From Clostridia bacterium (GTDB lineage Bacteria > Bacillota > Clostridia > Peptostreptococcales > Anaerovoracaceae): a stretch of 39,211 nt of DNA. Made by a program: the position numbers and the translations under genes. The stretch lies in assembly GCA_900754805.1 (NCBI GenBank), contig CAAEEE010000262.1, positions 1-39,211 on the forward strand. Direction: 5' to 3'. Below are positions 1-32,379 of this stretch, piece by piece. The notes beneath the pieces were generated by a model. That model did not search any database, had not been told where the DNA came from, and saw only the letters and a list, made by a program, of their open reading frames with translations. Every line of letters begins with the position of its first letter. Positions within the stretch are counted from its first letter, which is position 1.

Positions 1-355
1 GCTTGATGGTTGTAATCGGTTCGGTAACAGGAATCATGCCTGTTTCTATTAGAGCGACGGAAACGCCGATCGTATCGTGTCCGCACATTGGAAGCCAGCC
101 GCTGGTTTCAAAATAAAGGATACCAACATCGGTTCCCGGAGTGCAAGGTTCTGTAACGAGTGTACAGGACATATAGTCGTTGCCTCTCGGTTCATAGGAC
201 ATAAGAGTACGGAACCAGTCCTCGTGCTCTTTCATGTAAATAAATTTCTCAGCCATAGTGTTTCCCGGAACGTGGGGGAAACCGCCGACGATATTTCGGG
301 TAGGTTGTCCGAGCGTATGTGTCTCCACGGTTCGGAAGACTTTTTTTGCATTCAT
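1..355 (-). CDS. Proline racemase / hydroxyproline 2-epimerase family protein (3' part outside window)
   Basis: This is the first 118 codons of a proline-racemase-family enzyme; the rest lies beyond the left edge. The family epimerises C2 of proline or hydroxyproline with a pair of Cys acid/base residues. The first Cys is visible at residue 91 in MCGHDTIG; the second would lie outside. The N-terminus (RTVETHTLG, then YEPRGN and TEPCTPG) aligns closely with the complete paralogue at 13736-14743, and both have Cys91. The start is the ATG at 355-353, seven bases after GGAGGT (plus-strand ACCTCC 363-368). It is transcribed divergently from the first GRE and has its own sigma-54-type promoter, so it is probably co-induced with the GRE operon. 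Its likely role (inference) is making trans-4-hydroxy-D-proline from cis-4-hydroxy-L-proline. Exact substrate is not readable from sequence. Confidence 0.88.
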   Translation of the reverse strand, partial: MNAKKVFRTVETHTLGQPTRNIVGGFPHVPGNTMAEKFIYMKEHEDWFRTLMSYEPRGNDYMSCTLVTEPCTPGTDVGILYFETSGWLPMCGHDTIGVSVALIETGMIPVTEPITTIK

Positions 356-418
356 ATGTAATACCTCCACAAATTTATAATAGATTTAGGTCAGTTAATT
401 GTTAATGCATATATAATA

Positions 419-671: not shown

Positions 672-3035
672 ATGATTTCAGAAAGAGTGAAAAGATTAGC
701 ATCGAAGGTCAGAAACACACCGCTGACAATCTGTCTGGAGCGGGCGCGTCTGATTACGGATTTTTACAGTGACCCGTCGATGGAACCTTTTATCTTAAGG
801 AGAGCGAAGTCTTTCGAGTATGTACTGGACAGAAAGAAAATCTTTATCGATGATGATTCGATTCTGGCAGGACATCTTGGCTCAAGACTGCGCAGCGTTC
901 CTCTTTACCCTGAAATGACGGCATGGCTCAGAGATGACCTTGAGGAATTGGATACTCGCGATACCGATATCTTAAACTTTTTACCGGGCGAAAAGGATGA
1001 ACTTCGCGAAATGGTGAAAAAATGGGAGGGAAGAACTTTTGGAGACTTGACCGCCGCTCTGGCGACAGATCAGCTCAACGAAATGGTTGACATCGGTGTT
1101 TTCACGAAGGGCGTGTCGAATAAATCGACCATGTGCCATGCTCCGTTCTATGAGGAGCTGGTGAATAAGGGATACCGTCCTTACATCGAGGAATGTAAAA
1201 GAAAGATGGAAGAGATGGAAGATATGACAGTGGAATCCATCGAGTCCTATTATACTTGGCAGGCGATGGTCATCGTCATGGAAGCTTTGATTCGTTTCGC
1301 GCACAGATATGCGAATTTAGCTGAAGAAATGGCAGCAGAATGCAAAGATGAAAAGCGCAAGAAAGAGCTTTTGGCTATGGCAGAAAACTGCCGCGTTGTA
1401 CCGGAAAATCCGGCTCAGAATTTCCAGCAGGCAGCGCAGCTTATCTGGTTCACACACCTTGCGCTCATGATGGAAGTTAACAGTAACGACCACTGCATCG
1501 GAAGATTCGACCAGTTTATGTATCCGTTTTACAAGGAAGACCTTGCAAACGGCGTGGAAGAAGCTTTCATTGCAGATATCATCCATGAATTTAAGCTGAA
1601 AGTTGCGGAAATGTGGGAGGTCAGAACCAACAGAGAGACTTCGGCTTATCCGGGATGTCCGCTTTGGATGCACATCATTCTCGGCGGCGTTCTGCCGGAC
1701 GGCAGCGACGGATGCAATGAACTGACCCGCCTGTTCCTGCACTGCATGGAAGATTTACAGACGAAAGAACCTTGCATTTCCTTCCGTTACCACAGCAAAG
1801 TCGATCCGGAAACCTTCCGCATAGCATTATCGGTTGCCAGAGACGGAGGAAGCCACCCGGCATTCTTTAACGATAAGACAAATATCTCGCTTGCGATGGG
1901 ATTCGGTCACACGATTGAACAAGCAAGAGACTGGGGTATCTGCGGATGTATAGAACCATCTGTTCCTGGAATTACGGACTACCAGTCCAACGCCGGATAC
2001 TTCAACATGGGCAAGGTTTTCGAAATTATGCTCAACAACGGTGTTGACCCACTGACGGGTAAACAAATCGGTCCGAAAACCGGAGATGTAAGAGAGTTCA
2101 CGAACATTGAACAGTTCAAGCAAGCCTTTGCGGCACAGCAGGAATACTTCTTCAAATATTATATGATAATGTTCGACAGAATCGTTTCCTGCCACGGCTG
2201 GGTTGTTCCGACAATTACGGGCTCCGCATTTACACACGGATGCATTGAAAAAGGCCGGGTACTGCAGCGTAAAGGTGCTGACTATCGTTATACGGTTGTA
2301 GGCGTTACAGGTCTTGCGAACGTTGCGGATTCCTTCGCGGCGATTGAGACCTGCGTACTTGATAAAAAATATCTGACGATGTCCGAGCTTATGGACTTGC
2401 TCGCAACGAACTTCGAGGGACAGGAACATATGCGCCGGATGCTCTTGAACAGGGCGCCGAAGTTTGGTAATGACATTGAAGAGGTTGACAAATATGCGCA
2501 CTGGCTGTCGCAGCTTTGCAATAAGCAGATGTGCAAGTGGAAAGACGGAAGAGACGGACAGATGTCCTTCAACTTCTCAACACAGTCTTACAATGTTGTT
2601 CTCGGCGAGTTAATCGGAGCACTTCCGGACGGAAGAAAAGCGCATACGCCGATTGCAGATAACGCATGCCCGATGATTGGTGCAGACGTGGAAGGCCCGA
2701 CCGCTGTTATGAAGTCGCTTGGCGCGATTGACCCACTGCTTCCACAGGGCGGCGTTCTGGTAAACCAGAGATTTGATCCGGCAATCGTAAAGGGTGAGAA
2801 GGGTCTAGATATCCTTGAAACAGTTATTACAACCTATTTTGACGAGGAAAACGGACAACACATTCAGTTAAATATTGTTGACGATGAAACATTGCGTGCA
2901 GCGCAAAAAGATCCGACGAACGAAAAGTACAAGAATATACTTGTTCGAGTTGCCGGGTACTCTGCGTACTTTGTGGATCTGGAAAAAGGCATCCAGGAAA
3001 ATATTATTGCACGTACGCTTCAGCAGTCACTTTAA
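672..3035 (+). CDS. Glycyl-radical enzyme 1 (HplG-like eliminase family)
   Basis: This 787-residue GRE has a PFL-like domain and a C-terminal glycine-radical domain. The thiyl Cys and general-base Glu are in GCIEP (Cys426, Glu428), the arrangement of GRE dehydratases and C-N lyases, not the CC pair of pyruvate formate-lyase. The radical glycine is Gly762 in RVAGYS. An AGAGGTGATTGA ribosome site precedes the ATG. It heads an operon with ortA and ortB, whose substrate 2-amino-4-ketopentanoate is the product of trans-4-hydroxy-D-proline C-N lyase (HplG), so a hydroxyproline-type ring-opening role is likely. It is clearly more diverged than GRE2 and GRE3 are from each other. Active-site neighbourhood differs: NSNDHCIG instead of GGDHCLG, and GCIEPSVPG instead of GCIEPIVVG/HVLG. 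The true HplG could be this one or GRE2; sequence alone does not decide. Confidence 0.9.
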   Translation: MISERVKRLASKVRNTPLTICLERARLITDFYSDPSMEPFILRRAKSFEYVLDRKKIFIDDDSILAGHLGSRLRSVPLYPEMTAWLRDDLEELDTRDTDILNFLPGEKDELREMVKKWEGRTFGDLTAALATDQLNEMVDIGVFTKGVSNKSTMCHAPFYEELVNKGYRPYIEECKRKMEEMEDMTVESIESYYTWQAMVIVMEALIRFAHRYANLAEEMAAECKDEKRKKELLAMAENCRVVPENPAQNFQQAAQLIWFTHLALMMEVNSNDHCIGRFDQFMYPFYKEDLANGVEEAFIADIIHEFKLKVAEMWEVRTNRETSAYPGCPLWMHIILGGVLPDGSDGCNELTRLFLHCMEDLQTKEPCISFRYHSKVDPETFRIALSVARDGGSHPAFFNDKTNISLAMGFGHTIEQARDWGICGCIEPSVPGITDYQSNAGYFNMGKVFEIMLNNGVDPLTGKQIGPKTGDVREFTNIEQFKQAFAAQQEYFFKYYMIMFDRIVSCHGWVVPTITGSAFTHGCIEKGRVLQRKGADYRYTVVGVTGLANVADSFAAIETCVLDKKYLTMSELMDLLATNFEGQEHMRRMLLNRAPKFGNDIEEVDKYAHWLSQLCNKQMCKWKDGRDGQMSFNFSTQSYNVVLGELIGALPDGRKAHTPIADNACPMIGADVEGPTAVMKSLGAIDPLLPQGGVLVNQRFDPAIVKGEKGLDILETVITTYFDEENGQHIQLNIVDDETLRAAQKDPTNEKYKNILVRVAGYSAYFVDLEKGIQENIIARTLQQSL

Positions 3036-3066
3036 AAATATATATGTTTAAGAAAAGGAGAACAAA

Positions 3067-3369
3067 ATGGCAAAGAAAAATGATTGGGTTCGCATTCATA
3101 ACGTTGTATTGAAGGCGCAAGACAGAACGGCCAGAATTCCTGATGACACAAAGGAATGTGACCTTGAAATGTGGGTCAAAGGGCAGCTTCTTGATGAAAC
3201 TGCAGAAATCGGTGATATTGTAACAATCAAAACTGCAACAGGTAGAGAAGAAAAGGGAACCTTACTTGAGGTTGGGCCTTATTATACACACAGTTACGGC
3301 AAATTCGTGCCGGAAATCATCGAAATCGATAATATTCTCAGAGAAGAAATGTTCGGAGGTGACAAATAA
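3067..3369 (+). CDS. ortA: 2-amino-4-ketopentanoate thiolase, alpha subunit
   Basis: This 100-residue protein is the small subunit of AKP thiolase. The enzyme cleaves 2-amino-4-ketopentanoate with CoA to acetyl-CoA and alanine; it is known from clostridial ornithine fermentation and the HplG hydroxyproline pathway. Family features are WVRIHNVVL at the N-terminus, LEMWVKGQLLDE, and a C-terminal YGKFVPEII. An AAAAGGAG site precedes the ATG. Its stop codon overlaps the ortB start by one base (TAATG), implying translational coupling and a fixed subunit ratio. No ornithine aminomutase or 2,4-diaminopentanoate dehydrogenase gene is in the window, which argues for use in the GRE pathway here rather than classical ornithine breakdown. 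Confidence 0.9.
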   Translation: MAKKNDWVRIHNVVLKAQDRTARIPDDTKECDLEMWVKGQLLDETAEIGDIVTIKTATGREEKGTLLEVGPYYTHSYGKFVPEIIEIDNILREEMFGGDK

Positions 3370-4787
3370 TGGCATTAGCAAAAGACTATGATTCCGTAAT
3401 GAAGAGATCCGATGAGATCATGAAAAAGACTTTAGGTCTTGACTATAGCAATTTTGAAAGTGGCTCCATCGCATTCGATTACGAAGCTTTAATGGACGCA
3501 GCGACTTACAGCCTGGAAGAAATTCAGGCAATGCAGGCAGAAGTAGGTGTTGGCAACACTCCGATGCTTGAACTGAGAAACATCACGAAGCTTGCAAGAA
3601 AGTACTCCAAACCGGGATACGGCGCAAGAATTTTCACAAAGGACGAAGCAGCTAACCCATCCGGTTCTTTCAAGGACAGAAGAGCTTCCATCGCGGTTGC
3701 TCATGCTAAGAAGCTTGGCTATGAAGGCGTAATCGCTGCTACTTCCGGAAACTACGGTGCTGCTGTTGCATCTCAGGCTGCAATGCGTGGAATCAAATCC
3801 ATCATCGTTCAGGAATGCTATGACTCCCGTGGAGTTGGACAACCTGAAATCGTAGAAAAAGCCAGAAAGTGCGAAGCAATGGGCGCAGAAGTCATTCAGC
3901 TCACTGTTGGACCGGAACTTTTCTACGAACACCTTTCCGTAATGGAAGACACAGGCTATTTCAATGCTTCCCTGTATTCTCCGTTCGGTATTGCCGGCGT
4001 TGAAACACTTGGATATGAAATCGCTACAGAAATCCGTGAAAGATGCGGAAAAGACCCTGCAATAGTTGTATGTACATATGCAGGCGGCGGCATGATTACA
4101 GGCTGCGCAAGAGGCGTAAGAAGAGCCGGATGCGAAAACACGCAGATTATCGGTGCTTCTATCGACTTGACAGGTCTTTCCATGGCTTCCGATAAGCAGT
4201 TCAACATGAAGTCCTGCACAACCGGACATACAGGATTCGGCGTTCCTCACGCAATGAACCCGGATACAGGCGACATTCCAAGAAGTGCTGCCCGCCCGCT
4301 TAGATACATGGACCGTTATGTAACGACAACACAGGGCGAAGTTATGTTTATGACTGAAATGCTTGCAATCTTAGAAGGTATCGAAAGAGGGCCCGCAGGA
4401 AATACAGCATTAGCTGCTGCATTCGCACTGGCTCGTGAACTTCCGGAAGACGAAATTATCGTTGTTTCCGAAACTGAATACACAGGTGCAGGCAAGCACA
4501 TCCAGCCGCAGCTCGACTTTGCAAGAGATAACGGCATCGAAATCAAGTTCGGAAATCCTGCAGAAGAGGATATCCCGGGAACAAACGTTATCCTTCCTGC
4601 AAACGTTGGTCTCTTCCACTATAAAGATGAAGACCTTAACCGTTTGAGAAAGGGTCTGATTAAGAAGTCAGCAGCTCGCGCAAACGGCAAGACTCCGACA
4701 GCGGAAGATGTCGCATTCCTTGCAGCAGATACAAATACAGACGAAGAATATGTAAAGAATGTTTTGAAGGAATTAGGGCTTCTGTAA
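3369..4787 (+). CDS. ortB: 2-amino-4-ketopentanoate thiolase, beta subunit (PLP enzyme)
   Basis: This 472-residue fold-type II PLP protein is the catalytic subunit of AKP thiolase. The PLP lysine lies in NPSGSFKDRRAS, followed by the ATSGNYGAAVA phosphate/substrate loop shared with threonine-synthase-like enzymes. It starts at the ATG overlapping the ortA stop and is followed after 28 bp by GRE2. The thiolase gives acetyl-CoA and D-alanine in the HplG pathway, so it links ring opening to central metabolism. Placement between two GRE genes suggests that at least one makes 2-amino-4-ketopentanoate. A threonine-synthase assignment is less likely because of the ortA partner. Confidence 0.92.
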   Translation: MALAKDYDSVMKRSDEIMKKTLGLDYSNFESGSIAFDYEALMDAATYSLEEIQAMQAEVGVGNTPMLELRNITKLARKYSKPGYGARIFTKDEAANPSGSFKDRRASIAVAHAKKLGYEGVIAATSGNYGAAVASQAAMRGIKSIIVQECYDSRGVGQPEIVEKARKCEAMGAEVIQLTVGPELFYEHLSVMEDTGYFNASLYSPFGIAGVETLGYEIATEIRERCGKDPAIVVCTYAGGGMITGCARGVRRAGCENTQIIGASIDLTGLSMASDKQFNMKSCTTGHTGFGVPHAMNPDTGDIPRSAARPLRYMDRYVTTTQGEVMFMTEMLAILEGIERGPAGNTALAAAFALARELPEDEIIVVSETEYTGAGKHIQPQLDFARDNGIEIKFGNPAEEDIPGTNVILPANVGLFHYKDEDLNRLRKGLIKKSAARANGKTPTAEDVAFLAADTNTDEEYVKNVLKELGLL

Positions 4788-4815
4788 TATACGATAAAAC
4801 AGAAAGGAGCACACT

Positions 4816-7173
4816 ATGTTAACACCAAGAATTGAAAGACTGAATGATAAAGTAAGAAATACACTCCCAACAATCGACTTAGACCGCGCGAAGTTGATGA
4901 CAGAATTCTATAGCCAGCCATCCATGGATAATTATGTGATTCACAGAGCGAAAGCTTTTGCATATTTCTTAGAAAGAAAGAAAATTTTCATAGATGAAGA
5001 TTCCCGGCTTGTCGGTCATGTTGGTGATAAGTTCCAGGCTGTACCGCTTCATCCGGAAGCAACAAAGTGGCTGTACGATGACTTCGACACCTTGGATTGC
5101 AGAATTTCCGACCATCTGAAATTCAACAGCGAAGAAGAGAAGCAGGAATTAAAGGAAATCGTAACGAAGTGGCACGGACATACATTTGGTGATTATGCTG
5201 TCTCTTTAGAAGATCCGGATGTAAAGGAAATGCTTGACGCGTTAGTGTTCACACACGGCGTTTCGAATCAATCCACCATGAATCACTCGCCTGATTACGA
5301 CAATCTGATTAAACTCGGATACCGTCACTATATCGATGAATGTAAGGAAAAGCTTACAAACTTCCAATGCAATGATGTATATGATATGGAAAAGAGAGTA
5401 AACTGGGAAGCGATGATTATCGTTATGGAAGCGATTATCAATTTCTCACATCGTTACGCAGACCTCGCTGAAAAACAGGCTGCTGAATGCAAGGACGAAA
5501 AGAGAAAAGAAGAGCTTTTGACGATGGCGGAATGCTGCAGAACCGTTCCGGAATATCCGGCACAGACTTTCCAGCAGGCTTGCCAGATGGTATGGCTCAC
5601 TCATCTCTGCATCTGCCTTGAAGCGGTTGGCGGAGACCACTGCCTCGGACGTTTCGACCAGTACACCTATCCGTTCTGGCAGAAAGAATCCGCGGCAGGA
5701 AAAGATGAAGTTTACTTCCAGGAATTCATTCACGAATTTAAGCTGAAGGTTGCAGAACTTTGGAACATCCGTCAGTATAAGGAATCTATCGCTGTACCGG
5801 GCTGCCCGCTTTGGATGCATGTTATGCTCGGCGGCGTGAAGGAAGATGGCAAGGATGCCTGCAATGAAGTAACCGACATTTTCCTTCGCTGTCTGCTTGA
5901 CCTTCAGACAGACGAACCTTGTATTTCCTTCCGTTATCATCAGAATGTTAACGAGGAAACTTTCCGCCTTGCGATCAGAGCGGCAAGAGATACCGGTGGT
6001 CACCCTGCATTCTACAATGATGACTCGGCAGTCCTTTACCTGCTGAGCTTAGGCTTCACTTTGAAGGAAGCGAGAAACTGGGGTATCTGCGGATGTATCG
6101 AGCCAATCGTAGTCGGAAAGACTGACTTCCAGAGTAACTCCGGAAACTTCAATACAAACAAGGTTCTGGAAATCGCGCTTCATGATGGCGTAGATCCTCT
6201 GACAGGAAAGCAGCTCGGACCGAAGACAGGCAAGGCAGCTGATTTCAAATCCATCGAAGATGTTAAGAAGGCATTCGAAATCCAGCTTGACTTTTTCATG
6301 GAAAAACTGATTCGTATGCATAATACAACAATCGGTGCGCATGCAGTAATGTTCCCGACAATTACAGCATCCTGCTTCTCACAGGGCTGTATCGAAAAGG
6401 GCAAGACGCTGCAGCAGAAGGGTTCCGACCACCACTATACGACGGTTTCCATCGCAAGCATGGCGAACACAATCGACTCCTTCGCAGCAATGGAAGAATG
6501 CGTATTTAACAAGAAGTATCTGAACATGGAAGAATTAGTTCATCTTTTGGATACGAACTTCGAAGGTGCGGAAGATAAGAGACAAATGCTGATTCACAGA
6601 GCACCAAAGTTCGGAAACAATATCGAACAGGTTGATAAGTACGGATACTATGTAGTAAACAGAATCGATGAATCTCTGCATAGATTCAGGGATGCACATG
6701 GCGGACAGTGGACAAGCCTTCATGCAACAGTTGTATATAATGTAGAAATGGGTAAGAAGGTTGGTGCCCTTCCGGACGGCAGACTTGCACATACACCGCT
6801 TGCTGACAACGCTTCCCCGATGATTGGAATGGACGTAAACGGACCGACGGCAGTTGTTAACTCGCTTGCATGCTGCGACGAAATGCTTCCACAGAGCGGA
6901 ATGCTTCTCAACCAGAGATTCGACCCTGCAATTGCAGCAGGCGAAAAGGGTCTGGACATTATCGAAACTGTATTCCGAGCACACTTTGCACAGCATGGTT
7001 ATCATATTCAGATTAATGTATTGGATGATGAAACGCTTCTGGCAGCGCAGAAAGAACCGGATAAGTACCAGAATATCGTGGTTCGTGTAGCAGGGTATTC
7101 CGCTTACTTCGTTGAATTAGGAAAAGAAATTCAGGATAATATCATCGCAAGAACGATTCAGCAGGGACTTTAA
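4816..7173 (+). CDS. Glycyl-radical enzyme 2 (HplG-like eliminase family)
   Basis: This is a 785-residue GRE. Catalytic Cys427 and Glu429 are in GCIEP, with a further Cys425 two residues earlier (ICGC). The radical glycine is Gly760 in RVAGYSAYF. AGAAAGGAG precedes the ATG. It is the last gene of the sigma-54 operon and is followed by a hairpin terminator. Long stretches match GRE3 (for example STMNHSPDYDNLIK and WGICGCIEP), so these two are the more recent duplicates. They differ just after the catalytic Glu (PIVVGKTDFQSNSGNF here, PHVLGKTDFQSNPGYF in GRE3), hinting at altered substrate or stereoselectivity. Operon position beside ortAB makes it a strong candidate for trans-4-hydroxy-D-proline C-N lyase. 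It needs the radical-SAM activase at 9361. Confidence 0.9.
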   Translation: MLTPRIERLNDKVRNTLPTIDLDRAKLMTEFYSQPSMDNYVIHRAKAFAYFLERKKIFIDEDSRLVGHVGDKFQAVPLHPEATKWLYDDFDTLDCRISDHLKFNSEEEKQELKEIVTKWHGHTFGDYAVSLEDPDVKEMLDALVFTHGVSNQSTMNHSPDYDNLIKLGYRHYIDECKEKLTNFQCNDVYDMEKRVNWEAMIIVMEAIINFSHRYADLAEKQAAECKDEKRKEELLTMAECCRTVPEYPAQTFQQACQMVWLTHLCICLEAVGGDHCLGRFDQYTYPFWQKESAAGKDEVYFQEFIHEFKLKVAELWNIRQYKESIAVPGCPLWMHVMLGGVKEDGKDACNEVTDIFLRCLLDLQTDEPCISFRYHQNVNEETFRLAIRAARDTGGHPAFYNDDSAVLYLLSLGFTLKEARNWGICGCIEPIVVGKTDFQSNSGNFNTNKVLEIALHDGVDPLTGKQLGPKTGKAADFKSIEDVKKAFEIQLDFFMEKLIRMHNTTIGAHAVMFPTITASCFSQGCIEKGKTLQQKGSDHHYTTVSIASMANTIDSFAAMEECVFNKKYLNMEELVHLLDTNFEGAEDKRQMLIHRAPKFGNNIEQVDKYGYYVVNRIDESLHRFRDAHGGQWTSLHATVVYNVEMGKKVGALPDGRLAHTPLADNASPMIGMDVNGPTAVVNSLACCDEMLPQSGMLLNQRFDPAIAAGEKGLDIIETVFRAHFAQHGYHIQINVLDDETLLAAQKEPDKYQNIVVRVAGYSAYFVELGKEIQDNIIARTIQQGL

Positions 7174-7186
7174 TCTATAATTGTAA

Positions 7187-7222
7187 AAATTCCGGGCGAG
7201 CAAAAAGTTTGCCCGGGAATTT
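7187..7222 (+). terminator. Hairpin terminator after GRE2
   Basis: AAATTCCGGGC (7187-7197) pairs with GCCCGGGAATTT (7211-7222), with one bulged base. It begins 13 bases after the GRE2 stop. The following U-tract is weak (TTTGTATG), so some read-through into the regulator is possible. Confidence 0.6.
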
Positions 7223-7242
7223 GTATGTGGGGGCACTGTTTG

Positions 7243-7251
7243 TGGTATAAT
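7243..7251 (+). promoter_or_regulatory. Sigma-70-type extended -10 promoter of the regulator gene
   Basis: TGGTATAAT is an extended -10 element. A possible -35, TTGTAT at 7221-7226, is 19 bases upstream, which is long. This suggests the activator is made constitutively while its targets use sigma-54. Confidence 0.5.
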
Positions 7252-7309
7252 GATTGTTGTAGCAAACAAAATTGTGAAAATGGACTAAAAAAGATTAAAG
7301 GAGGCAACT

Positions 7310-9172
7310 ATGCCAGAAAATGCAAAAAAGTTCAAACAAATTGCCTTGCAGGCTGAGCCGATCAGACTATACGGACGGAATTTGATGGTGCGTGACTTGT
7401 TTCGTGTCTTTGCGAAGCAGAATGCTCAGAAAATCCCACTGCTTGTGCTGAGCACGACAGAGGGACGGATTCTATCTTTCTTGCAGGATGACGTAGAGGA
7501 TGCAGAGCTTGAAGGCAGACAGGTTTCTGTAAAAGAACGACGTGACCTCTGTCCGGAATGGACGGAATTTAAGTGCAATGAGGAATTTTTGCTGCTCGCT
7601 CCTGCAGATTCTGCGGAAGCTGCAGGGATACAGGCGATGCTGTCCGGAGCATTGGAAAGCGTTGACGCAAACGAACAGCGGAACGAGGACCTTCTGAAGT
7701 CTTTAGATGTAGTGCAGAATGCCATTTCCATCTGCGACAGAGAGGCGAATATTATATTCGCGAATCGCAGATACTGGGAAGACTTTCATATTAACGTAAA
7801 AGAGAAGCCTTTAGGCATGAATATAAATGATATTACTTCAAAGTATGGCGTGAACATCAAGAATTTTGACCCTACGAATAACGGAAGCTTGAAGATGTTT
7901 GACGTCTTAAGTGAAGGTGAGCCGGCTCTCGACTGGGAAGTACGGCTGGAGTTTCCGAAAAGCGGCGAGCCGTCGCAGCTGGTTTCCAATGATATGTATC
8001 CGATTAAGGATGAGCGAGGAAACGTAACGGGAATTGTGGAGATCACCCGTTCCAGACAGCAGGATTTAACAACTGCCCGTAAGATTGTCGGACTTGCTGC
8101 AGACTATACTTTCGCGGACATTATCGGTTCCAGCACACAGATTCAGCAGAAGATTCACATCGCGAAGGAATATGCGAAATCCGATTACAGCATACTGATT
8201 ACGGGGGAAAGCGGCGTCGGCAAGGAGTTGTTCGCGCAGTCGATTCATAATTTCAGCCCGAAACGTAAAGGACCGTTTGTGGCACTCAACTGTGCAAACT
8301 TCCCTGAAAACCTTATCGAGAGTGAACTGTTCGGCTATGTTGCAGGAGCGTTCACAGGTGCCTCGAAAAAAGGCGGCGTCGGCAAGTTTGAACTTGCAAA
8401 TCATGGCACACTGTTTTTGGATGAAATCGGTGAGCTGCCATATCATTTCCAGTCCAAGCTGCTGAGAGTGCTTGAAACGATGACGGTTACGAGAATCGGC
8501 AGCAATCAAAGCATTCCGATTGATGTGCGTGTCGTTGCGGCAACCAACCGTGACCTTAGAGAGATGGTTAAAAACGGATTCTTCCGTGAAGACCTTTATT
8601 TCCGTCTGGGTGTACTGAACGTTGATGTACCGCCGCTACGTGACAGAAAAGAGGATTTGCTGCAGCTTGCAGAGGCACTTTTATCACAAAGTAAGGATCC
8701 GATGTCCTCAAAGGCGAAGAGGTTAAGCGCAGATTCCGAAAAGATTCTTGAGGCATATGACTGGCCGGGAAATGTGCGTGAGCTGCGCAATGTACTCAGC
8801 CGCGCCGGCATTTTATCAAGAGGTGAGGAAATTTCTGCGGAAACCCTGAAGCGGTGCATTGATCCGACCCGGATAATGGAAACTGAAGCGATGCAAGAGG
8901 AAGGCGGCATTGCTTCAGCAGCTGAAAAGGAAAGCATTTCCTATGATAAAGTGTATCAGAACTACCTCGACTCCCTTGTGGAGAACGCAGATGCCGAAGA
9001 TGACGAGAAACTGGCGGAAGTGCTTCAGGAATCTCAGAAGAAGCTTTTAGAGGTTCTGATTCGTAAAGCTCTGGAATATACCGGAGGAAATAAGAAGCGC
9101 GCGGCAGAACTTTTGCGGATGTCCAGAAAGACGCTGTATAATATTATGAGCCGTGAAAAATGGGATGTATAA
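7310..9172 (+). CDS. Sigma-54-dependent transcriptional activator with PAS domain
   Basis: This 620-residue enhancer-binding protein has an N-terminal region (about 1-125) of unclear type and a PAS-like sensor segment (about 125-245, around SICDREANIIFANRR). The AAA+ sigma-54 interaction domain carries the Walker A GESGVGKE near residue 298 and the sigma-54 contact loop GAFTGA at about 346-351, followed by FLDEIGEL (Walker B). The C-terminal Fis-type helix-turn-helix (GGNKKRAAELLRMSRKTLYN) lies at about 585-610. The start is preceded by AAAGGAGG. It sits between two transcription units that both have RpoN promoters, so it very likely controls the island. The inducer, presumably an amino acid sensed through the N-terminal or PAS region, is unknown. 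No receiver domain was seen. Confidence 0.93.
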   Translation: MPENAKKFKQIALQAEPIRLYGRNLMVRDLFRVFAKQNAQKIPLLVLSTTEGRILSFLQDDVEDAELEGRQVSVKERRDLCPEWTEFKCNEEFLLLAPADSAEAAGIQAMLSGALESVDANEQRNEDLLKSLDVVQNAISICDREANIIFANRRYWEDFHINVKEKPLGMNINDITSKYGVNIKNFDPTNNGSLKMFDVLSEGEPALDWEVRLEFPKSGEPSQLVSNDMYPIKDERGNVTGIVEITRSRQQDLTTARKIVGLAADYTFADIIGSSTQIQQKIHIAKEYAKSDYSILITGESGVGKELFAQSIHNFSPKRKGPFVALNCANFPENLIESELFGYVAGAFTGASKKGGVGKFELANHGTLFLDEIGELPYHFQSKLLRVLETMTVTRIGSNQSIPIDVRVVAATNRDLREMVKNGFFREDLYFRLGVLNVDVPPLRDRKEDLLQLAEALLSQSKDPMSSKAKRLSADSEKILEAYDWPGNVRELRNVLSRAGILSRGEEISAETLKRCIDPTRIMETEAMQEEGGIASAAEKESISYDKVYQNYLDSLVENADAEDDEKLAEVLQESQKKLLEVLIRKALEYTGGNKKRAAELLRMSRKTLYNIMSREKWDV

Positions 9173-9198
9173 AAAAGCTGTTCAAAGAATACACAAAT

Positions 9199-9217
9199 CG
9201 AGTAAAAAATATACACG
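9199..9217. promoter_or_regulatory. Candidate upstream activator site for the activase-GRE3 operon
   Basis: CGAGTA-N7-TACACG is an imperfect dyad lying 27 bases after the regulator stop. It shares AAAAAATATACACGC exactly with the site at 483-501. Its end is 79 bp before the -24 GG at 9296. Confidence 0.6.
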
Positions 9218-9294
9218 CATAAGGAGCTTGTGACGAAAGAATCGCTGCAAGCCCCTTTTTTGTTAAAAAAAGCCGAAAAAAGGCAAATGAAAGT

Positions 9295-9310
9295 TGGCAC
9301 GATAATTGCT
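9295..9310 (+). promoter_or_regulatory. Sigma-54 (-24/-12) promoter of the activase-GRE3 operon
   Basis: TTGGCACGATAATTGCT (TTGGCAC begins at 9294/9295) matches the RpoN consensus. GG at 9296-9297 and GC at 9308-9309 are separated by 10 bases. Confidence 0.85.
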
Positions 9311-9360
9311 TGTTATAATGGTGTCAAAAGATATTAAAGAAATCGTGAGGAGGGAGACCA

Positions 9361-10290
9361 TTGATTTTCAATGTTCAAAAGTGTTCCATCCATGATGGAG
9401 AAGGATTGAGAACCATCGTTTTTTTCAAAGGCTGCCCGCTTCGATGCAAATGGTGCGCGAATCCGGAGTCGCAATTATATACTCCGGAGATTATGGAGTA
9501 CCCGAGAAAATGTGTCGGAGACGGAAACTGCGTTAAAGTTTGTCCGGTAGGAGCGATTCATCCTACGGAGGAAGGTTTTAAGATTGATAGAGACAAGTGC
9601 ATAAAGTGCTTCAAGTGTACAGATGTCTGCCACGCTATGGCGAAGGAGGTCTGCGGCATGGAAAAGACTGCGGACGAACTGTTCAAGGAAGTCAACAAGG
9701 ATCGTCATTTTTATCGCTTGAAAGGCGGTGGTGCAACCTTCTCAGGAGGAGAACCGCTGACGCAGCCGGAACTTCTGACGGAGCTTGCGAAAAAATGTAA
9801 AGCAAATCGGGTCAGCACAACCATTGAAACTTGTGGTTATGGAGATTACGAAAAATTTAAAGAAGCAATCCCGTATCTCGATCATATCTTCTTTGATGTG
9901 AAAGCAATGGATTCTGAGCTGCATAAAGAATTGACAGGGGTAACAAATGAAGTGATTTTGGGAAATCTGAAGAAGATTAACGACTTTGGAGTCCCGATTA
10001 CAATTCGTACTCCGGTCATTCCGGGAAGCAACGATTCGATTGAAAACATTCAAGCAATCGCTGACGCCATCAAAGATTTAAGCAGCGTAAGAGAATATGA
10101 ACTCCTGCCTTATCATAACCTCGGAGAGTCGAAGTACAAAGCACTCGGAAAGCACTATGAGCTGGAAGAAGTAAAACCTCCGGAAGATGATTTCATCAGA
10201 GAACGCGTGAAAGCCGCGAACCAAATATTGAAGCCGTGTGGAAAGGAATGCTTCTACACGAAGAAAAATGCAAGAGAAGTTGTTATATAG
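9361..10290 (+). CDS. Glycyl-radical enzyme activase (radical SAM)
   Basis: This 309-residue activase uses S-adenosylmethionine to install the glycyl radical on GREs. The radical-SAM motif CPLRCKWC (Cys25, Cys29, Cys32) is near the N-terminus. A ferredoxin-like insert follows with CVGDGNCVKVCP and CIKCFKCTDVC, as in activases of GRE eliminases and unlike the short PFL activase. The GGGATFSGGEPL motif is present. The start is a TTG at 9361, with GAGGAGGGAG at 9347-9356; the mature family N-terminus (IFNVQKCSIHDGEG) begins at residue 2, and no ATG or GTG is in frame nearby. It is the only activase in the window, so it presumably serves all three GREs; a second one elsewhere in the genome is possible. 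Confidence 0.93.
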   Translation: MIFNVQKCSIHDGEGLRTIVFFKGCPLRCKWCANPESQLYTPEIMEYPRKCVGDGNCVKVCPVGAIHPTEEGFKIDRDKCIKCFKCTDVCHAMAKEVCGMEKTADELFKEVNKDRHFYRLKGGGATFSGGEPLTQPELLTELAKKCKANRVSTTIETCGYGDYEKFKEAIPYLDHIFFDVKAMDSELHKELTGVTNEVILGNLKKINDFGVPITIRTPVIPGSNDSIENIQAIADAIKDLSSVREYELLPYHNLGESKYKALGKHYELEEVKPPEDDFIRERVKAANQILKPCGKECFYTKKNAREVVI

Positions 10291-10331
10291 CAATGACATT
10301 TAAAAGAGAAAATCTGAAAGGAGAACAAAAA

Positions 10332-12686
10332 ATGTTATCAGAGAGAATTCAAAGATTAAGCAACAAGGTCAGAAATACGCAACCTACAATCGACCTTAAC
10401 AGAGCAAGACTGTTTACAGAGTATTACAGCCGCCCTTCCATGGACAACTACATCCTGAGAAGAGCAAAAGCGTTTCGCTACTATCTGCAGAACAGAGAAA
10501 TCTTCATCGACGAAGATTCCTGGCTTGCAGGACATCAGGGCGGACAGTGGGAATCCGTTGTTATGTTTCCGGAATCAACCAAGTGGCTGTATGATGATTT
10601 CGAAACTCTGGACAAGAGACCTTCCGACCACTTCCGGTTCAGAAGTGAAGAGGAAAAGAAGGAACTCAGAGAAATCGTTGAAATCTGGAAAGGTCAGACT
10701 ACAGGCGACTTCATGGACGGTCTTCTTGATGACAACATGAGACCGATGCTTGACCTCGGCCTTATGACTCACGGTATTTCCCAGCAGTCAACAATGAACC
10801 ATTCCCCTGACTATGATAACTTAATCAAGAGAGGATATCGTTATTACATCGATCAGTGCAAGAAGAGCCTTGAAGAACTGAGAGTTAACGACGTAGCTGA
10901 TTTTGAAAAGAGAATTACATGGGAAGCTATGATAATTGTTATGGAAGCAGTTATCGAATTTTCCCACAGATATGCTGACTTAGCAGAAAAGCTTGCTGCA
11001 GAATGCACAGATGAAAAGAGAAAAGCAGAACTCCTTACTATGGCTGACAACTGCAGAAACGTACCGGAAAATCCTCCTCGTACCTTCCTTGAAGCAGCTC
11101 AGTTCGTTTGGATGAACCACTTAGCGCAGTCTCTGGAAGCTGCAGGCGGCGACCACTGTCTTGGAAGATTTGACCAGTATATGTATCCATTCTGGCAGAA
11201 TGAAAAGGATAACCAGCCGGAACAGTACTTCCAGGATATTATCCATGAGTTAAAGTTAAAGGTGGCTGAAATGTGGAACGCTCGCTGCTACAAGGAATCC
11301 TTGGCTGACCCCGGTAACCCGCTGTGGATGCATATCATCCTTGCAGGTCAGAAGGAAAACGGCAAGGACGCTTGTAACGAAGTTACAAGAATCTTTCTCA
11401 GAGCAATGAGAGACCTACAGACAGATGAACCTTGCATTACTTTCCGTTATCACCAGAATATTGATGAAGAAACATTCCGTCTGGCAATCGAAGTTGCAAG
11501 AGACAATGGCGGACACCCGGCATTCTATAATGACGCAACAGCAATTACATACCTTCTCGGCCTTGGCTTCAGTTTGAAGGAAGCAAGAAACTGGGGTATC
11601 TGCGGATGTATCGAACCACATGTTCTTGGCAAGACAGACTTCCAGAGCAACCCTGGATACTTCAATCCAATCAAGATTTTAGACCTTACTCTGCATAATG
11701 GCTACAGCCCTGAAATCAAGCAGCAGATTGGTCCTAAGACAGGCGATCCGAAGGAATGGAAGAGCATTGAAGACGTTAAGGCTGCATTTAAGACACAGCT
11801 TGAGTTCTTCATGGAACGTTTTGTATCCATGTTCAACAGAACATTAGCAGCCCACGCATATGTGTTCCCTACAATCTTAGGCTCCTGCTTCTCCGTTGGG
11901 TGTCTGGAAAAGGGTAAACTGCTTCAGGATAAGGGTTCTGATCATCACTACTCCGCAATTGCAATTGCAGGATTCGCAGATATGGTTGACTCCCTTGAAG
12001 CAATGGATAAGTGTGTATTCCGAGATAAGTCTCTTACTATGGAAGAACTTGTTCATCTCCTTGATACAAACTTCGAAGGCGCGGAAGACAAGAGGCAAAT
12101 GCTTCTTAACAGAGCACCTAAGTTCGGTAATGACATTGAAGAAGTAGATGAATATTCCTACTGGGTACTTGACACATTAGATACTTGCATGAAACAGTAC
12201 CACGATGCACAGGGCGGACAGTTTACTTCATTGGTGGCAACGCAGGCTTACAACGTAGAAATGGGTAAGTGGGTTGGTGCAACTCCAAACGGCAGACTTG
12301 CGGGTACTCCGCTTGCAGACAATGTATCCCCATCCGTAGGTATGGATACACATGGACCGACTGCAGTTGTTAACTCCCTTGCTTGCTGTGACGAACTCGT
12401 TCCGCAGAGTGGACTTCTTCTAAACCAGAGATTCGACCCGGCTGTTGTTGCAGGCGAAAAGGGACTTGATATCATCGAGACTGTATTCCGTGCTCACTTT
12501 AACCAGAACGGATATCACATTCAGATTAACGTATTCGACGATGAAACTCTGAGAGCTGCTCAGAAGGATCCGGACAGCTACAGAAACATCCTCGTTCGCG
12601 TAGCCGGTTACTCTGCATACTTCGTAGATCTGAGCGAAGAAGTACAAAACAACATTATTGAGAGAACAATCCAGACAGGACTGTAA
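10332..12686 (+). CDS. Glycyl-radical enzyme 3 (HplG-like eliminase family)
   Basis: This 784-residue GRE has catalytic Cys426 and Glu428 in GCIEP and radical Gly759 in RVAGYSAYF. The ATG at 10332 was chosen because AAAGGAG lies just upstream and the protein start (MLSERIQRLSNKVRN) aligns with GRE1 and GRE2; the open frame extends back to 10236, inside the activase, without support. It is the partner of the activase, 41 bp downstream of it and under the same sigma-54 promoter. It is the closest paralogue of GRE2 but has His rather than Ile at the residue after GCIEP, and GSCFSVGCLEKGK in place of ASCFSQGCIEKGK. The substrate is not established; a hydroxyproline isomer or related cyclic hydroxy-amino acid is the natural guess. 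Confidence 0.9.
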   Translation: MLSERIQRLSNKVRNTQPTIDLNRARLFTEYYSRPSMDNYILRRAKAFRYYLQNREIFIDEDSWLAGHQGGQWESVVMFPESTKWLYDDFETLDKRPSDHFRFRSEEEKKELREIVEIWKGQTTGDFMDGLLDDNMRPMLDLGLMTHGISQQSTMNHSPDYDNLIKRGYRYYIDQCKKSLEELRVNDVADFEKRITWEAMIIVMEAVIEFSHRYADLAEKLAAECTDEKRKAELLTMADNCRNVPENPPRTFLEAAQFVWMNHLAQSLEAAGGDHCLGRFDQYMYPFWQNEKDNQPEQYFQDIIHELKLKVAEMWNARCYKESLADPGNPLWMHIILAGQKENGKDACNEVTRIFLRAMRDLQTDEPCITFRYHQNIDEETFRLAIEVARDNGGHPAFYNDATAITYLLGLGFSLKEARNWGICGCIEPHVLGKTDFQSNPGYFNPIKILDLTLHNGYSPEIKQQIGPKTGDPKEWKSIEDVKAAFKTQLEFFMERFVSMFNRTLAAHAYVFPTILGSCFSVGCLEKGKLLQDKGSDHHYSAIAIAGFADMVDSLEAMDKCVFRDKSLTMEELVHLLDTNFEGAEDKRQMLLNRAPKFGNDIEEVDEYSYWVLDTLDTCMKQYHDAQGGQFTSLVATQAYNVEMGKWVGATPNGRLAGTPLADNVSPSVGMDTHGPTAVVNSLACCDELVPQSGLLLNQRFDPAVVAGEKGLDIIETVFRAHFNQNGYHIQINVFDDETLRAAQKDPDSYRNILVRVAGYSAYFVDLSEEVQNNIIERTIQTGL

Positions 12687-12918: not shown

Positions 12919-13662
12919 ATGCTACTCAAAGACAAAGTAATTTTAATTACCGGTGCAGCTACAGGAATAGGCAGAGAAACTGCCCTGCTGTTTGCAAAGG
13001 AAGGTGCTGACCTGGCACTTTTGACAGGAAGAAATCAGGCAGCGCTTGATGAAGTTGCAGAAGAGGCAAAGAAGCTCGGCAGCAAAGTTTACCATGGTCT
13101 TGCTGACGTTGCAAACAAAGAGCAGATTGAGAATTTTGTAAAGAACAGCGCAGAGTGCTTCGGTAAGCTTGATGGACTGGTTTGCTGCGCAGGTTTGTTT
13201 GAACCGACACCGTTTTTAGAAGGCGACGAAGAGGTTCTCAGACGCGCGATTGATGTCAATATGATGGGCGTTTGGTACGTAACGAAGGCAGTTGCTCCAT
13301 ATCTGATTGAACAGGGCGGCGGCTCCATGGTTGCAATTACTTCTTCCGATGCTTTCACAGGCTGCATCAACTATGCTCCGTATTCAATGGCAAAAGCAGG
13401 CGTCGTAGGTTTATACCGTACAGCAGCGCTGGAGCTTGGACCTAAGAATGTCAGATGCAATATGATTGCGCCGGGAATCACAGATACCGCGCTTGTACAC
13501 GACAGAATCGTGGCAAGAAGAGAAATCTATCTGGACGGGTCTGCGCTCAGAAGAATCGGCGAACCAATCGATATCGCCAACGCTTGTCTGTATCTTTCCT
13601 CGGATATGAGCCTTCAGCTTACAGGTCAGGTTCTTCATATCAACGGAGGATGTTATTTTTAA
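12919..13662 (+). CDS. Short-chain dehydrogenase/reductase
   Basis: This 247-residue classical SDR has the Rossmann motif TGAATGIGRE near the N-terminus, CCAG in the NNAG position, a catalytic Ser in ITSSDAF, and the YSMAK Tyr/Lys pair. The C-terminal GQVLHINGG is typical of FabG-like family members. Acidic or basic residues deciding NAD versus NADP are not clear. It is 73 bp upstream of the complete racemase gene, so the two may be co-transcribed. In this setting it might interconvert hydroxy and keto forms of the cyclic amino acid or reduce a downstream ketone; that is inference. A general 3-oxoacyl reductase role cannot be excluded but is less likely outside a fatty-acid cluster. Confidence 0.88.
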   Translation: MLLKDKVILITGAATGIGRETALLFAKEGADLALLTGRNQAALDEVAEEAKKLGSKVYHGLADVANKEQIENFVKNSAECFGKLDGLVCCAGLFEPTPFLEGDEEVLRRAIDVNMMGVWYVTKAVAPYLIEQGGGSMVAITSSDAFTGCINYAPYSMAKAGVVGLYRTAALELGPKNVRCNMIAPGITDTALVHDRIVARREIYLDGSALRRIGEPIDIANACLYLSSDMSLQLTGQVLHINGGCYF

Positions 13663-13735: not shown

Positions 13736-14743
13736 ATGAGAGCGAAAAAAACGATCAGAACAATTGAGACTCATACTTTAGGTATGTGTACTCGAAATGT
13801 TGTAAGCGGACTTCCGCCAATTCCGGGTAAGACTATGCAGGAAAAGTTCTTATATTTAAAGGAAAACTTTGATTCCTTCAGAACTTTTGTTTGCTGGGAA
13901 CCGAGAGGAAATGCTGACATGTCAGCAACCATTTTCACAGAACCATGCACACCGGGCTGTGACATCGGTATTATCTATTTCGAAGCAAGTGACTGGCTTC
14001 CGATGTGCGGACACGACACAATCGGTGCGACTGTTGCTTTAATCGAAGGCGGTTTAATCGAAGCAAAAGAACCAATCACAACGATTAAGATTGATACGCC
14101 TGCAGGCGTTATCGAAGTTACTGCAGAAGTGAAAGACGGAAGCGTTACAAAGGTTTCCTTCCTGAACGCACCGGCTATGCCGCTTCTTCGTGACGTAGTT
14201 CTGAAGACAAAAGAATACGGCGACTTAAAGCTTGATGTATCCTGGGGTGGAAATGTTTACGCAATTCTTCCAGCAGAATCCGTTGGAATTGCAATCGAGC
14301 CATCCAATGCAGACGCATTCATCACAGCAGCAAACATCATCGGCGCATACTGCAATGAACAGCTTGAGATCAAGCATCCGGAACTTGATTTCGTAAACAA
14401 AGTAACTCACGTTGAGTTCTACGGACCTCCAAAGAGCGAAAAGGCAGACATTCAGAACTGCGTTGTAGCTCTTCCGAAGGTAGTTGACCGTTCCCCATGT
14501 GGAACAGGAACATCTGCGAAGGCAGCTCTTCTGTATGCAGAAGGAAAGCTTGGCGTAGGCGACAGCTTTGTACACGAAAGCATCATCGGCTCCCTGTTCG
14601 AATGTAAAGTTGCTGAAGTATGCGATGTAAATGGCGTAGAAGCAATTAAGCCTATCGTTTCCGGAAACGCAGCAATCTGCGGTTTCGCAACATGGATTCT
14701 TGACCCGAAGGATCCGTTCCCAGAGGGATTCTTACTGATCTAA
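13736..14743 (+). CDS. Proline racemase / hydroxyproline 2-epimerase family protein
   Basis: This is a complete 335-residue enzyme of the two-base racemase family. Both catalytic cysteines are present: Cys91 in MCGHDTIG and Cys255 in DRSPCGTGTSAK. The second Cys separates it from trans-3-hydroxyproline dehydratases, which carry Thr there. Asp follows CGH in the first motif, where many family members have Gly or Asn. GTGAGG precedes the ATG. It is the paralogue of the truncated gene at the left edge. Its likely job is C2 epimerisation of a hydroxyproline, feeding one of the GREs with a D-isomer. The pairing of two racemases with three GREs suggests different stereoisomers or substrates. Plain proline racemase activity is also possible. 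Confidence 0.92.
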   Translation: MRAKKTIRTIETHTLGMCTRNVVSGLPPIPGKTMQEKFLYLKENFDSFRTFVCWEPRGNADMSATIFTEPCTPGCDIGIIYFEASDWLPMCGHDTIGATVALIEGGLIEAKEPITTIKIDTPAGVIEVTAEVKDGSVTKVSFLNAPAMPLLRDVVLKTKEYGDLKLDVSWGGNVYAILPAESVGIAIEPSNADAFITAANIIGAYCNEQLEIKHPELDFVNKVTHVEFYGPPKSEKADIQNCVVALPKVVDRSPCGTGTSAKAALLYAEGKLGVGDSFVHESIIGSLFECKVAEVCDVNGVEAIKPIVSGNAAICGFATWILDPKDPFPEGFLLI

Positions 14744-14824: not shown

Positions 14825-15769
14825 ATGGACACAAAAAAAATTTTGACAAACCCTGTGGCGGTTCCGCTCCTTGCACTTTTGACCTGTGCGTTGTGGGGGA
14901 GTGCTTTTCCTGCGATAAAAATAGGCTTTTCTTTAATGCACATTGAAACGGTTGGCAGCAAAATTTTGTATGCAGGCACCAGATTTATGATGGCCGGAAT
15001 TATGACGGTAATTCTTGCGAGTATCATTGAAAAAAGATTTGTAATCATTAAAAAGAGCTCTATTCCGGCGGTTTGCACACAGGGACTGATTCAGACAACG
15101 ATACAGTATATCGCCTTTTACATAGGCCTGTCCTTTACCTCTGGGGCGAAGGCATCGGTCATTAACGGCGGAAACACCTTTTTTTCAATTATTGTGGCGC
15201 ATTTTCTGGTGAAGGGTGAAAAGATAAACGCAAGAAAAATTATTGGATGCGTCATCGGCTTTCTTGGAATTATTATTATCAATATGAAAGACGGAAATTT
15301 ATTTGGAGATTTTAGCTTTGCAGGGGAGGGAATGATCTTAATCTGTACAGCAACTTACGGTACCAGCTCGGTAACAACTAAGATTTTCTCCAAGCTGGAG
15401 AGCCCAGGTGCTTTGGCAGGATATGAGCTGATTTTTGGCTCGTCACTGCTCTTAATCATCGGCTTTTTAGCAGGAGGCCATTTAAGCGGCTTTACAGTGA
15501 AATCAGCATTACTGCTTTTTTATCTTGCGCTTTTAAGCACAATCTCGTTTTATCTGTGGGCTGCGCTTCTGAAATACAATTCGGTCAGCAAAGTCACCGT
15601 CTTCGGACTTACAGTGCCAATCTTCGGTGTTTTGCTCTCGGCACTGGCACTGGGTGAAAAGGTAATGACGCTCACTAACGTAGTGGCACTTCTGCTTGTA
15701 TGCGGCGGAATTGTAATCGTTAATCGTATGCCGAAAAATGAAGAAAATGCAGACTTAGAGAATCATTAA
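14825..15769 (+). CDS. EamA/DMT-family transporter
   Basis: This 314-residue membrane protein has about ten hydrophobic segments in two repeated halves, as in the drug/metabolite transporter superfamily. The first helix carries the family signature LTCALWGSAFPAIKIG; the second half starts near GEGMILICTATYGTSSV. No good ribosome site lies in the usual window: the nearest purine tract, AGAAGG, ends 16 bases before the ATG at 14825, and an A-rich stretch lies between. Translation may therefore be low or linked to the hairpin upstream. It lies in the same orientation as the racemase and could import or export an amino acid of the pathway. DMT proteins are mostly exporters of amino acids or metabolites; substrate unknown. 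Confidence 0.88.
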   Translation: MDTKKILTNPVAVPLLALLTCALWGSAFPAIKIGFSLMHIETVGSKILYAGTRFMMAGIMTVILASIIEKRFVIIKKSSIPAVCTQGLIQTTIQYIAFYIGLSFTSGAKASVINGGNTFFSIIVAHFLVKGEKINARKIIGCVIGFLGIIIINMKDGNLFGDFSFAGEGMILICTATYGTSSVTTKIFSKLESPGALAGYELIFGSSLLLIIGFLAGGHLSGFTVKSALLLFYLALLSTISFYLWAALLKYNSVSKVTVFGLTVPIFGVLLSALALGEKVMTLTNVVALLLVCGGIVIVNRMPKNEENADLENH

Positions 15770-21644: not shown

Positions 21645-21661
21645 GTAAATCATCCTCCTTT

Positions 21662-32293: not shown

Positions 32294-32379
32294 AATTCCA
32301 TTCATGTTAAAATGTTAGAAGTGACACATCTTTAACTAATATGGCGATGGTCTCATTGCCTGAAAGGAGTAGGAAGAAT

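Follow-up and report, generated by a model that had tools for sequence, protein, structure and literature searches.

Three glycyl radical enzyme paralogues beside ortAB in a Clostridia bacterium: a candidate unit for the fermentation of several 4-hydroxyproline isomers

The island and the relation of its glycyl radical enzymes to HplG

The window analysed here, a stretch of 39,211 nucleotides from a Clostridia bacterium (contig CAAEEE010000262.1), holds at its left end an island in which three genes for glycyl radical enzymes (GREs), named GRE1, GRE2 and GRE3, stand together with ortA and ortB, the genes of 2-amino-4-oxopentanoate thiolase, a sigma-54-dependent regulator, a radical S-adenosylmethionine (SAM) activase, a short-chain dehydrogenase (SDR), two genes of the proline racemase and hydroxyproline 2-epimerase family (ProR1 and ProR2) and a transporter (Table 1). 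A first-pass annotation of this DNA had described three full-length GREs with GCIEP and RVAGYS motifs and a single radical-SAM activase beside ortAB. Both descriptions hold: the three frames run uninterrupted for 787, 785 and 784 residues, each carries the two motifs and matches the Pfam PFL-like and Gly_radical domains, and the activase gave the sole ActE match in the window (tblastn). The GRE3 frame is open from a GTG at 10236, and the ATG at 10332 matches the HplG start. In NCBIfam, OrtA and OrtB scored above their equivalog cut-offs and the activase above that of its subfamily, while no GRE passed any cut-off. ProR2 runs past the window edge, so that the island starts outside positions 672 to 12686 and may hold additional genes, conceivably including a second activase, beyond the left edge.

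Among solved structures, all three enzymes come nearest, by a clear distance, to HplG, which opens the ring of trans-4-hydroxy-D-proline (PDB 7vua; 1040, 1321 and 1439 bits for GRE1, GRE2 and GRE3, with next best matches at 522, 490 and 524). Identity to 7vua is 76.6% for GRE3, 70% for GRE2 and 56% for GRE1. Chance resemblance is not an issue, since the three share 55-69% pairwise identity over their full length. Compared with the related locus L101, dN/dS was 0.018 for GRE2 and 0.023 for GRE3, with dS near saturation. Trees were built from 269 of 274 GREs (five shorter than 700 residues were excluded) and from 55 chosen rows (short search, LG+G4 without a mixture model, with a long-branch warning outside the superclade). 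The homologue lists held the best 120 of 852, 473 and 3258, and 79 distinct GRE frames were kept from 109 in loci. The three window enzymes fell together with HplG in one superclade of 214 sequences, from which HypD and the remaining GREs of the set were separate. Within it we distinguish clades A1 (64 sequences, the HplG group), A2 (33, with GRE2), B (63, with GRE1) and C (46); eight rows (L044, P0054, P0057, P0058, P0061, P0085, P0095 and P0108) fall into none of them. GRE3 groups with 7vua in A1, GRE2 is nested in clade A, and GRE1 lies in clade B, outside clade A. From this placement and the alignments, GRE3 is very probably HplG itself. Clade B includes Pelosinus propionicus. The HplG paper, reportedly that of Duan et al. 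in JACS in 2022, is said to name propionate producers in its abstract and, given this Pelosinus sequence, may mention relatives of GRE1.

Membership in two other GRE families was rejected. Against the HypD cut-off of 1100 bits (NF043068) GRE1, GRE2 and GRE3 scored 538, 522 and 520, about half of it, and they have no equivalent of HypD Asp339; against that of the choline lyase CutC (TIGR04394, 1050 bits) they scored 425, 402 and 412. The PFL2-3 subfamily cut-off of 678 bits was missed by all of them (592-608 bits).

Table 1. Genes of the island, with coordinates in the window, strand and supporting details.
Feature	Coordinates	Strand	Details
ProR2, second proline-racemase/hydroxyproline-2-epimerase family gene, 5' part only	2..370	-	open frame; cut by the left edge of the window
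GRE1, clade B of the HplG superclade	672..3035	+	Cys426 (1947-1949), Glu428, Gly762 (2955-2957); pocket N272, D273, Y326, Y443, Q638
ortA, 2-amino-4-oxopentanoate thiolase small subunit	3067..3369	+	NF040739, 128 bits vs cut-off 70
ortB, 2-amino-4-oxopentanoate thiolase pyridoxal phosphate (PLP) subunit	3369..4787	+	NF040741, 785 bits vs cut-off 550
GRE2, clade A2	4816..7173	+	Cys427 (6094-6096), Gly760 (7093-7095); V327 (5794-5796), N444 (6145-6147), V639 (6730-6732)
Sigma-54-dependent regulator	7310..9172	+	best named relative PrdR, NF041552, 380 bits, below cut-off 795; Pfam Sigma54_activat
Radical-SAM GRE activase, TTG start	9361..10290	+	TIGR02494, 344 bits vs 174; Radical_SAM and Fer4 domains
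GRE3, probable HplG orthologue, clade A1	10332..12686	+	Cys426 (11607-11609), Gly759 (12606-12608); pocket D326, Y443, Q638
SDR	12919..13662	+	
ProR1, two-Cys proline-racemase family, probable hydroxyproline 2-epimerase	13736..14743	+	Pfam Pro_racemase
EamA-family transporter	14825..15769	+	Pfam match

Residues of the predicted substrate pocket

HypD contacts given in PMC7077986 were transferred to HplG numbering by HMMER and MAFFT alignments, which defined 12 pocket positions. Tyr450, Thr645, Trp277, Asp278, Phe340 and Phe152 of HypD correspond to positions 444, 639, 273, 274, 333 and 148 and the CXE motif to 427-429; His160 falls on 157 (HMMER) or 156 (MAFFT), and Asp339 was placed, at 332, in the HMMER alignment alone. 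The same paper names Ser334, Tyr450 and Thr645 as ligands of the substrate carboxylate in HypD and states that Phe333 of glycerol dehydratase fills the same space as Ser334; position 327 was assigned to Ser334 via this Phe333, counted off the HMMER alignment.

GRE3 is identical to HplG at all 12 mapped positions. GRE2 differs at three, with Val327, Asn444 and Val639 for the Asp, Tyr and Gln of HplG, and GRE1 at two, Asn272 and Tyr326 (HplG positions 273 and 327). The GRE2 changes are those of its whole clade: among 785 positions, four separate A1 from A2 when 95% fixation is required on either side (327, 444, 518 and 639), and three of these, 327, 444 and 639, align with the HypD carboxylate ligands. 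Pocket positions were enriched among the fixed differences at the 95% (3/4, Fisher p=1.1e-5), 90% (3/7, p=9e-5) and 80% (3/16, p=0.0014) levels. Read over positions 273, 274, 327, 444 and 639, the signature is GDDYQ in 63 of 64 A1 sequences, GDVNV in all 33 of A2 and xDYYQ in 60 of 63 of clade B (the remainder being RDHYQ in two and SDYFQ in one), and it is mixed in clade C; the window enzymes read GDDYQ (GRE3), GDVNV (GRE2) and NDYYQ (GRE1).

The residues expected for radical chemistry are conserved throughout: Cys427, Glu429 and Gly760 (HplG numbering) are kept in 214/214 rows of the superclade. Across the 160 sequences of A1, A2 and B, Asp274 and Trp333 are invariant and His157 occurs in 158. 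All 206 grouped sequences have Leu, Met or Val at position 332, the three window enzymes having Leu. Position 327, whose mapping rests on HMMER, is Tyr, Val and Asp in GRE1, GRE2 and GRE3, the Ser334 of HypD being absent.

In all 46 clade C members the thiyl motif reads CTE and not CIE, and position 333 is Tyr, while 27 of them do not have Asp274; another chemistry is possibly at work in this part of the superclade. In one clade C gene next to ortAB (L110, 7235-9592, minus strand; G590:C29:40235-42589), an in-frame TGA stands precisely where the codon of the catalytic cysteine is expected; it is the only one in an otherwise intact frame of 786 codons. No selB, tRNA-Sec or selD scored over its cut-off in this fragmented assembly (G590), and for this reason we do not claim selenocysteine in the enzyme; in genome G762 the three genes lie together on one contig, so that one missing contig could explain their absence. 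A pseudogene or a sequencing error is possible.

Gene neighbourhoods in relatives and accompanying genes

A marker search led to the relative G107, in whose family 12 of 349 genomes have close GRE relatives. Class- and order-wide genome samples held no close relative (0/391 and 0/198), a scan of genome contigs gave distant GREs only (30 loci, best 36-37% identity), no relative was found in viral contigs, and plasmids held only GREs below 60% identity (25 records). The neighbourhood counts cover the window and 20 other loci, annotated by tblastn, several of which end at contig ends. L100 and L101 overlap and L099 to L104 belong to one genome (G851), so that the Fisher p values for neighbourhoods overstate independence.

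Clade B enzymes were found in six loci of relatives, with an activase directly upstream in all six, ortAB after the GRE in four, and ProR and ProC in five each; ProC exceeded its cut-off in the five loci scanned. GRE2-type enzymes occur in six loci, the window included, and each time another superclade GRE is adjacent (as contig-end fragments in L108 and L114). These loci also share their companions. An SDR of at least 40% identity is present in 5/6 of them and in 0/15 others (p=3e-4), and a ProR with the motif PRGND[Y/I]MS in 5/5 and 0/9 (p=5e-4); the window is counted in both tests, and both the identity limit and the motif were chosen after seeing the data.

The arrangement in L101 reads ProR, ortA, ortB, GRE2 (92% identity), regulator, activase, GRE3 (92%), SDR, ProR1 (95%) and EamA, without GRE1. 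This corresponds to the island of the window lacking GRE1, which suggests that GRE1 was added to, or lost from, the arrangement. One activase stands beside two GREs in L100, L101, L103 and L105, so that sharing of an activase would be a recurrent feature; the three GREs per activase and per ortAB of the window are the most seen among the loci compared. EamA matches were found in L101, L104, L108, L116 and L117 (tblastn). In G851, four superclade GREs lie within about 21 kb, with two activases and two ortAB sets. This genome, the source of L099 to L104, shows an unusual expansion, with 13 GRE matches at E values of 1e-90 or below and six ortB matches at 1e-80 or below.

In four loci (L104, 12370-15535; L116, 8065-11261; L118, 4419-6604; L102, 8965-12085), a GRE is followed by a GlmL-like protein and by a second protein that carries a B12-binding domain at its C-terminus. 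The B12-binding protein has 590-620 residues in L104 and L116, and in L116 its N-terminal portion has no Pfam match. The pair is followed by ortAB and ProC in L104 and L116 and by ProC in L102, and possibly represents a B12-dependent mutase, so far uncharacterised, that acts together with GREs.

Two catalytic cysteines are present in all 15 full-length ProR copies of the comparison, which have Ser and Ala at the positions of F102 and F290 of the Trypanosoma cruzi proline racemase; these positions we take to be the two Phe sites discussed below. ProR1 has both cysteines, as expected of a racemase or epimerase and not of a dehydratase, and remained below the cut-offs of the seven NCBIfam families that it matched (4-hydroxyproline epimerase, 301 vs 376; proline racemase, 365 vs 556). 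The first catalytic Cys of ProR2 lies within the window, in MCGHDTIG, and the part with the second lies beyond the edge; over 118 residues ProR2 is 67% identical to ProR1, and it is 88-89% identical to the copies in L103 and L105. Its variant PRGNDYMSC matches the epimerases that accompany GRE2-type enzymes. PMC4364671 describes two Phe sites that have been proposed to matter for the use of proline; known hydroxyproline epimerases (HypE) carry Cys or Tyr at the second of them, and Ser stands at the first in mutants made to mimic HypE. ProR1 and ProR2 both have this Ser, and ProR1 has Ala at the second site. They are likely hydroxyproline 2-epimerases, a prediction from their sequences.

PMC11199699 identifies mammalian BDH2 as a 4-oxoproline reductase. 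The same role was considered for the SDR and set aside, though not decisively: its sole match in the PDB with an E value of 1e-45 or lower is a (3R)-hydroxyacyl-CoA dehydrogenase chain.

Elsewhere in the window, genes for PFOR, a FAD/NAD-binding protein resembling sulfide or dihydroorotate dehydrogenases and a GltA-type protein cluster on the minus strand (19406-25183), a possible electron-transfer set for fermentation. A frame with similarity to Ser/Thr kinases (30760-32274; NF033483, 119 bits vs a cut-off of 450) is followed by a frame of 1008 residues without NCBIfam match (32341-35367).

A predicted multi-isomer route and its alternatives

We propose that the island serves to ferment several isomers of 4-hydroxyproline, with GRE1 and GRE2 opening the ring of stereoisomers other than that used by GRE3, a reading to which we give a probability of about 0.58. 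In this scheme the two proline-racemase-type epimerases would equilibrate L- and D-hydroxyprolines at C2, and the activase, shared or assisted by others elsewhere in the genome, would charge the three GREs with glycyl radicals. By analogy with HplG, whose mechanism combines hydrogen abstraction at C4 with cleavage of the C5-N bond, the Cys thiyl radical of each enzyme would take the hydrogen from C4 and the ring would open to 2-amino-4-oxopentanoate, which OrtAB and CoA would convert into acetyl-CoA and alanine. All three would thus be C-N lyases feeding one thiolase from different hydroxyproline stereoisomers. GRE1 and GRE2 would perform the same ring opening with the carboxylate seated differently: the machinery presumed to handle the C4 hydroxyl and the nitrogen (Cys, Glu, Asp274, His157 and Trp333) is kept, and what is altered is the carboxylate side (327, 444 and 639 in GRE2, 327 and 273 in GRE1), a combination that fits a change of stereoisomer and not of reaction. 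A substrate other than that of HplG is probable for GRE2 and, with slightly less assurance, for GRE1. Their identity can be offered as tentative working guesses at best: cis-4-hydroxy-D-proline, the epimerase product of the trans-4-hydroxy-L-proline of collagen, for GRE1, and cis-4-hydroxy-L-proline, with the C4 configuration of the GRE3 substrate and the carboxylate on the other face, for GRE2. 3-Hydroxyproline and hydroxypipecolate were rejected as substrates on chemical grounds, because C-N cleavage would not yield the 2-amino-4-oxopentanoate taken by OrtAB; for hydroxypipecolates, the judgement of improbable holds on condition that the product goes to OrtAB.

The known systems set the frame for this proposal. 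The window enzymes share with HplG the superclade, the fold, the CIE and RVAGYS motifs and the proximity of ortAB and an epimerase, GRE3 extending the likeness to all 12 mapped pocket positions; they depart from it in the altered residues of GRE2, in the distance and the Tyr327 and Asn273 of GRE1, and in the presence of three GREs in one island. HypD is likewise a GRE eliminase of hydroxyproline, and equivalents of its Asp278, His160, Cys434 and Glu436 are kept, whereas the scores, the missing Asp339 equivalent and the adjoining ortAB set the window enzymes apart. The thiolase resembles that of ornithine fermentation in both subunits but stands here among GREs, and neither ornithine mutase nor diaminopentanoate dehydrogenase was among the families listed for 26 window proteins (NCBIfam, at most 25 families per list). 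To our knowledge, one GRE for hydroxyproline ring opening has been characterised, and open-access literature (titles and beginnings of abstracts, subscription papers being outside the scope) yielded no paper on further HplG-type specificities.

Several observations weigh against the proposal. No enzyme of clades A2, B and C has an activity known to us. The pocket positions were assigned by alignment and not from coordinates of HplG with its substrate; position 327 in particular was mapped via Phe333, and MAFFT places Ser334 and Asp339 of HypD in an insertion that has no aligned partner. Leaving 327 out of the pocket set reduces the A1-A2 enrichment to 2/4 (p=0.001), and as A2 is a single clade its changes may represent one event. 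For GRE1 the case is weaker. The first-pass annotation had singled it out as the enzyme diverged around the active site, citing NSNDHC against GGDHC in GRE2 and GRE3 and unlike residues after GCIEP; both differences are as described, yet fixed differences between A1 and B are not denser in the pocket (95%, 1/9, p=0.13; 90%, 1/17, p=0.23; 80%, 1/40, p=0.47), in contrast to those of the GRE2 clade, so that the pocket divergence of GRE1 does not exceed its general divergence. Gly273, as in HplG, occurs in 13 of 63 clade B members. ProC stands near 5/7 clade B loci (p=0.08), which could hint at pyrroline-5-carboxylate as product. Finally, the Ala at the second epimerase site is neither the Phe of proline racemase nor the Cys or Tyr of known hydroxyproline epimerases, and this is why the epimerase assignment stays at likely and predicted.

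The alternative that survives best is gene dosage or differential regulation, in which all three enzymes would open trans-4-hydroxy-D-proline and the residue changes would be neutral or tune affinity. The 70-77% identity of GRE2 and GRE3 to HplG and the single ortAB and activase of the window speak for it. The first-pass annotation had linked simple dosage to a common place in the HplG clade, identical contact residues and the same activity; one superclade unites all three with HplG, but their contact residues are not identical. Moreover, the A2 changes sit on carboxylate ligand positions and are fixed in 33/33, the A2 enzymes stand beside a second superclade GRE in every locus and are accompanied by one epimerase variant, and clade B has clusters of its own in relatives. 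With unlike contacts, a fixed clamp in the GRE2 clade and GRE1 in a separate clade, simple gene dosage appears unlikely.

Less probable still is a substrate that lacks a free acid or amine for GRE2 and perhaps for GRE1, for instance N-methylated hydroxyproline (4-hydroxyproline betaines) or an amide or peptide of hydroxyproline, which would give a modified aminoketone. The exchange of Asp327, Tyr444 and Gln639 for Val, Asn and Val makes the GRE2 pocket less polar, and PDB titles name GREs as N-methyl-cis-4-hydroxy-D-proline (8iof) and N-methyl-cis-4-hydroxy-L-proline (8id1) dehydratases, from which it follows that hydroxyproline GREs named for single isomers, here of a derivative, exist, a point that also speaks for the main proposal. 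These two enzymes are however just 28-30% identical to the models of GRE1 and GRE2, HplG being far closer, and no demethylase or corrinoid methyltransferase was among the families listed for the 26 window proteins (NCBIfam).

It is improbable that GRE1 is a HypD-like dehydratase producing pyrroline-5-carboxylate for reduction by ProC, in spite of the ProC genes of clade B loci. The essential Asp339 is replaced by Leu or Val in 63/63 clade B members and Ser334 by Tyr or His (HMMER mapping), GRE1 falls far below the HypD cut-off, ortAB belongs to 4/6 of the clade B clusters, and the window itself has no ProC match (tblastn). That GRE1 or GRE2 assists another GRE within mixed dimers, or is in the course of being lost, is very improbable, since the radical residues are kept in all superclade rows and dN/dS of GRE2 is low, although GRE2-type enzymes do stand beside another superclade GRE in six loci.

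Stereochemical specialisation of the three GREs therefore remains our preferred reading. Extended to the family, it would make the HplG superclade a set of stereochemically specialised ring-opening GREs (A1, A2, B and C at the least), paired with epimerase variants to match, which would let a single bacterium feed several hydroxyproline stereoisomers into one thiolase; GRE1 and GRE2 would then represent two new C-N-cleaving specificities, that of GRE2 reached by little more than a swap of the clamp; we regard this wider picture as having an even chance of being correct. The contrast between A1 and A2, with four fixed differences of which three lie in the clamp, is clean and directly testable. 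If the paralogues do take other isomers, they would offer natural carboxylate-clamp variants in one scaffold, and with them a view of how a radical eliminase reads stereochemistry. Hydroxyproline being an amino acid of collagen, they would also show how anaerobes might use collagen trans-4-hydroxy-L-proline without HypD and the proline route.

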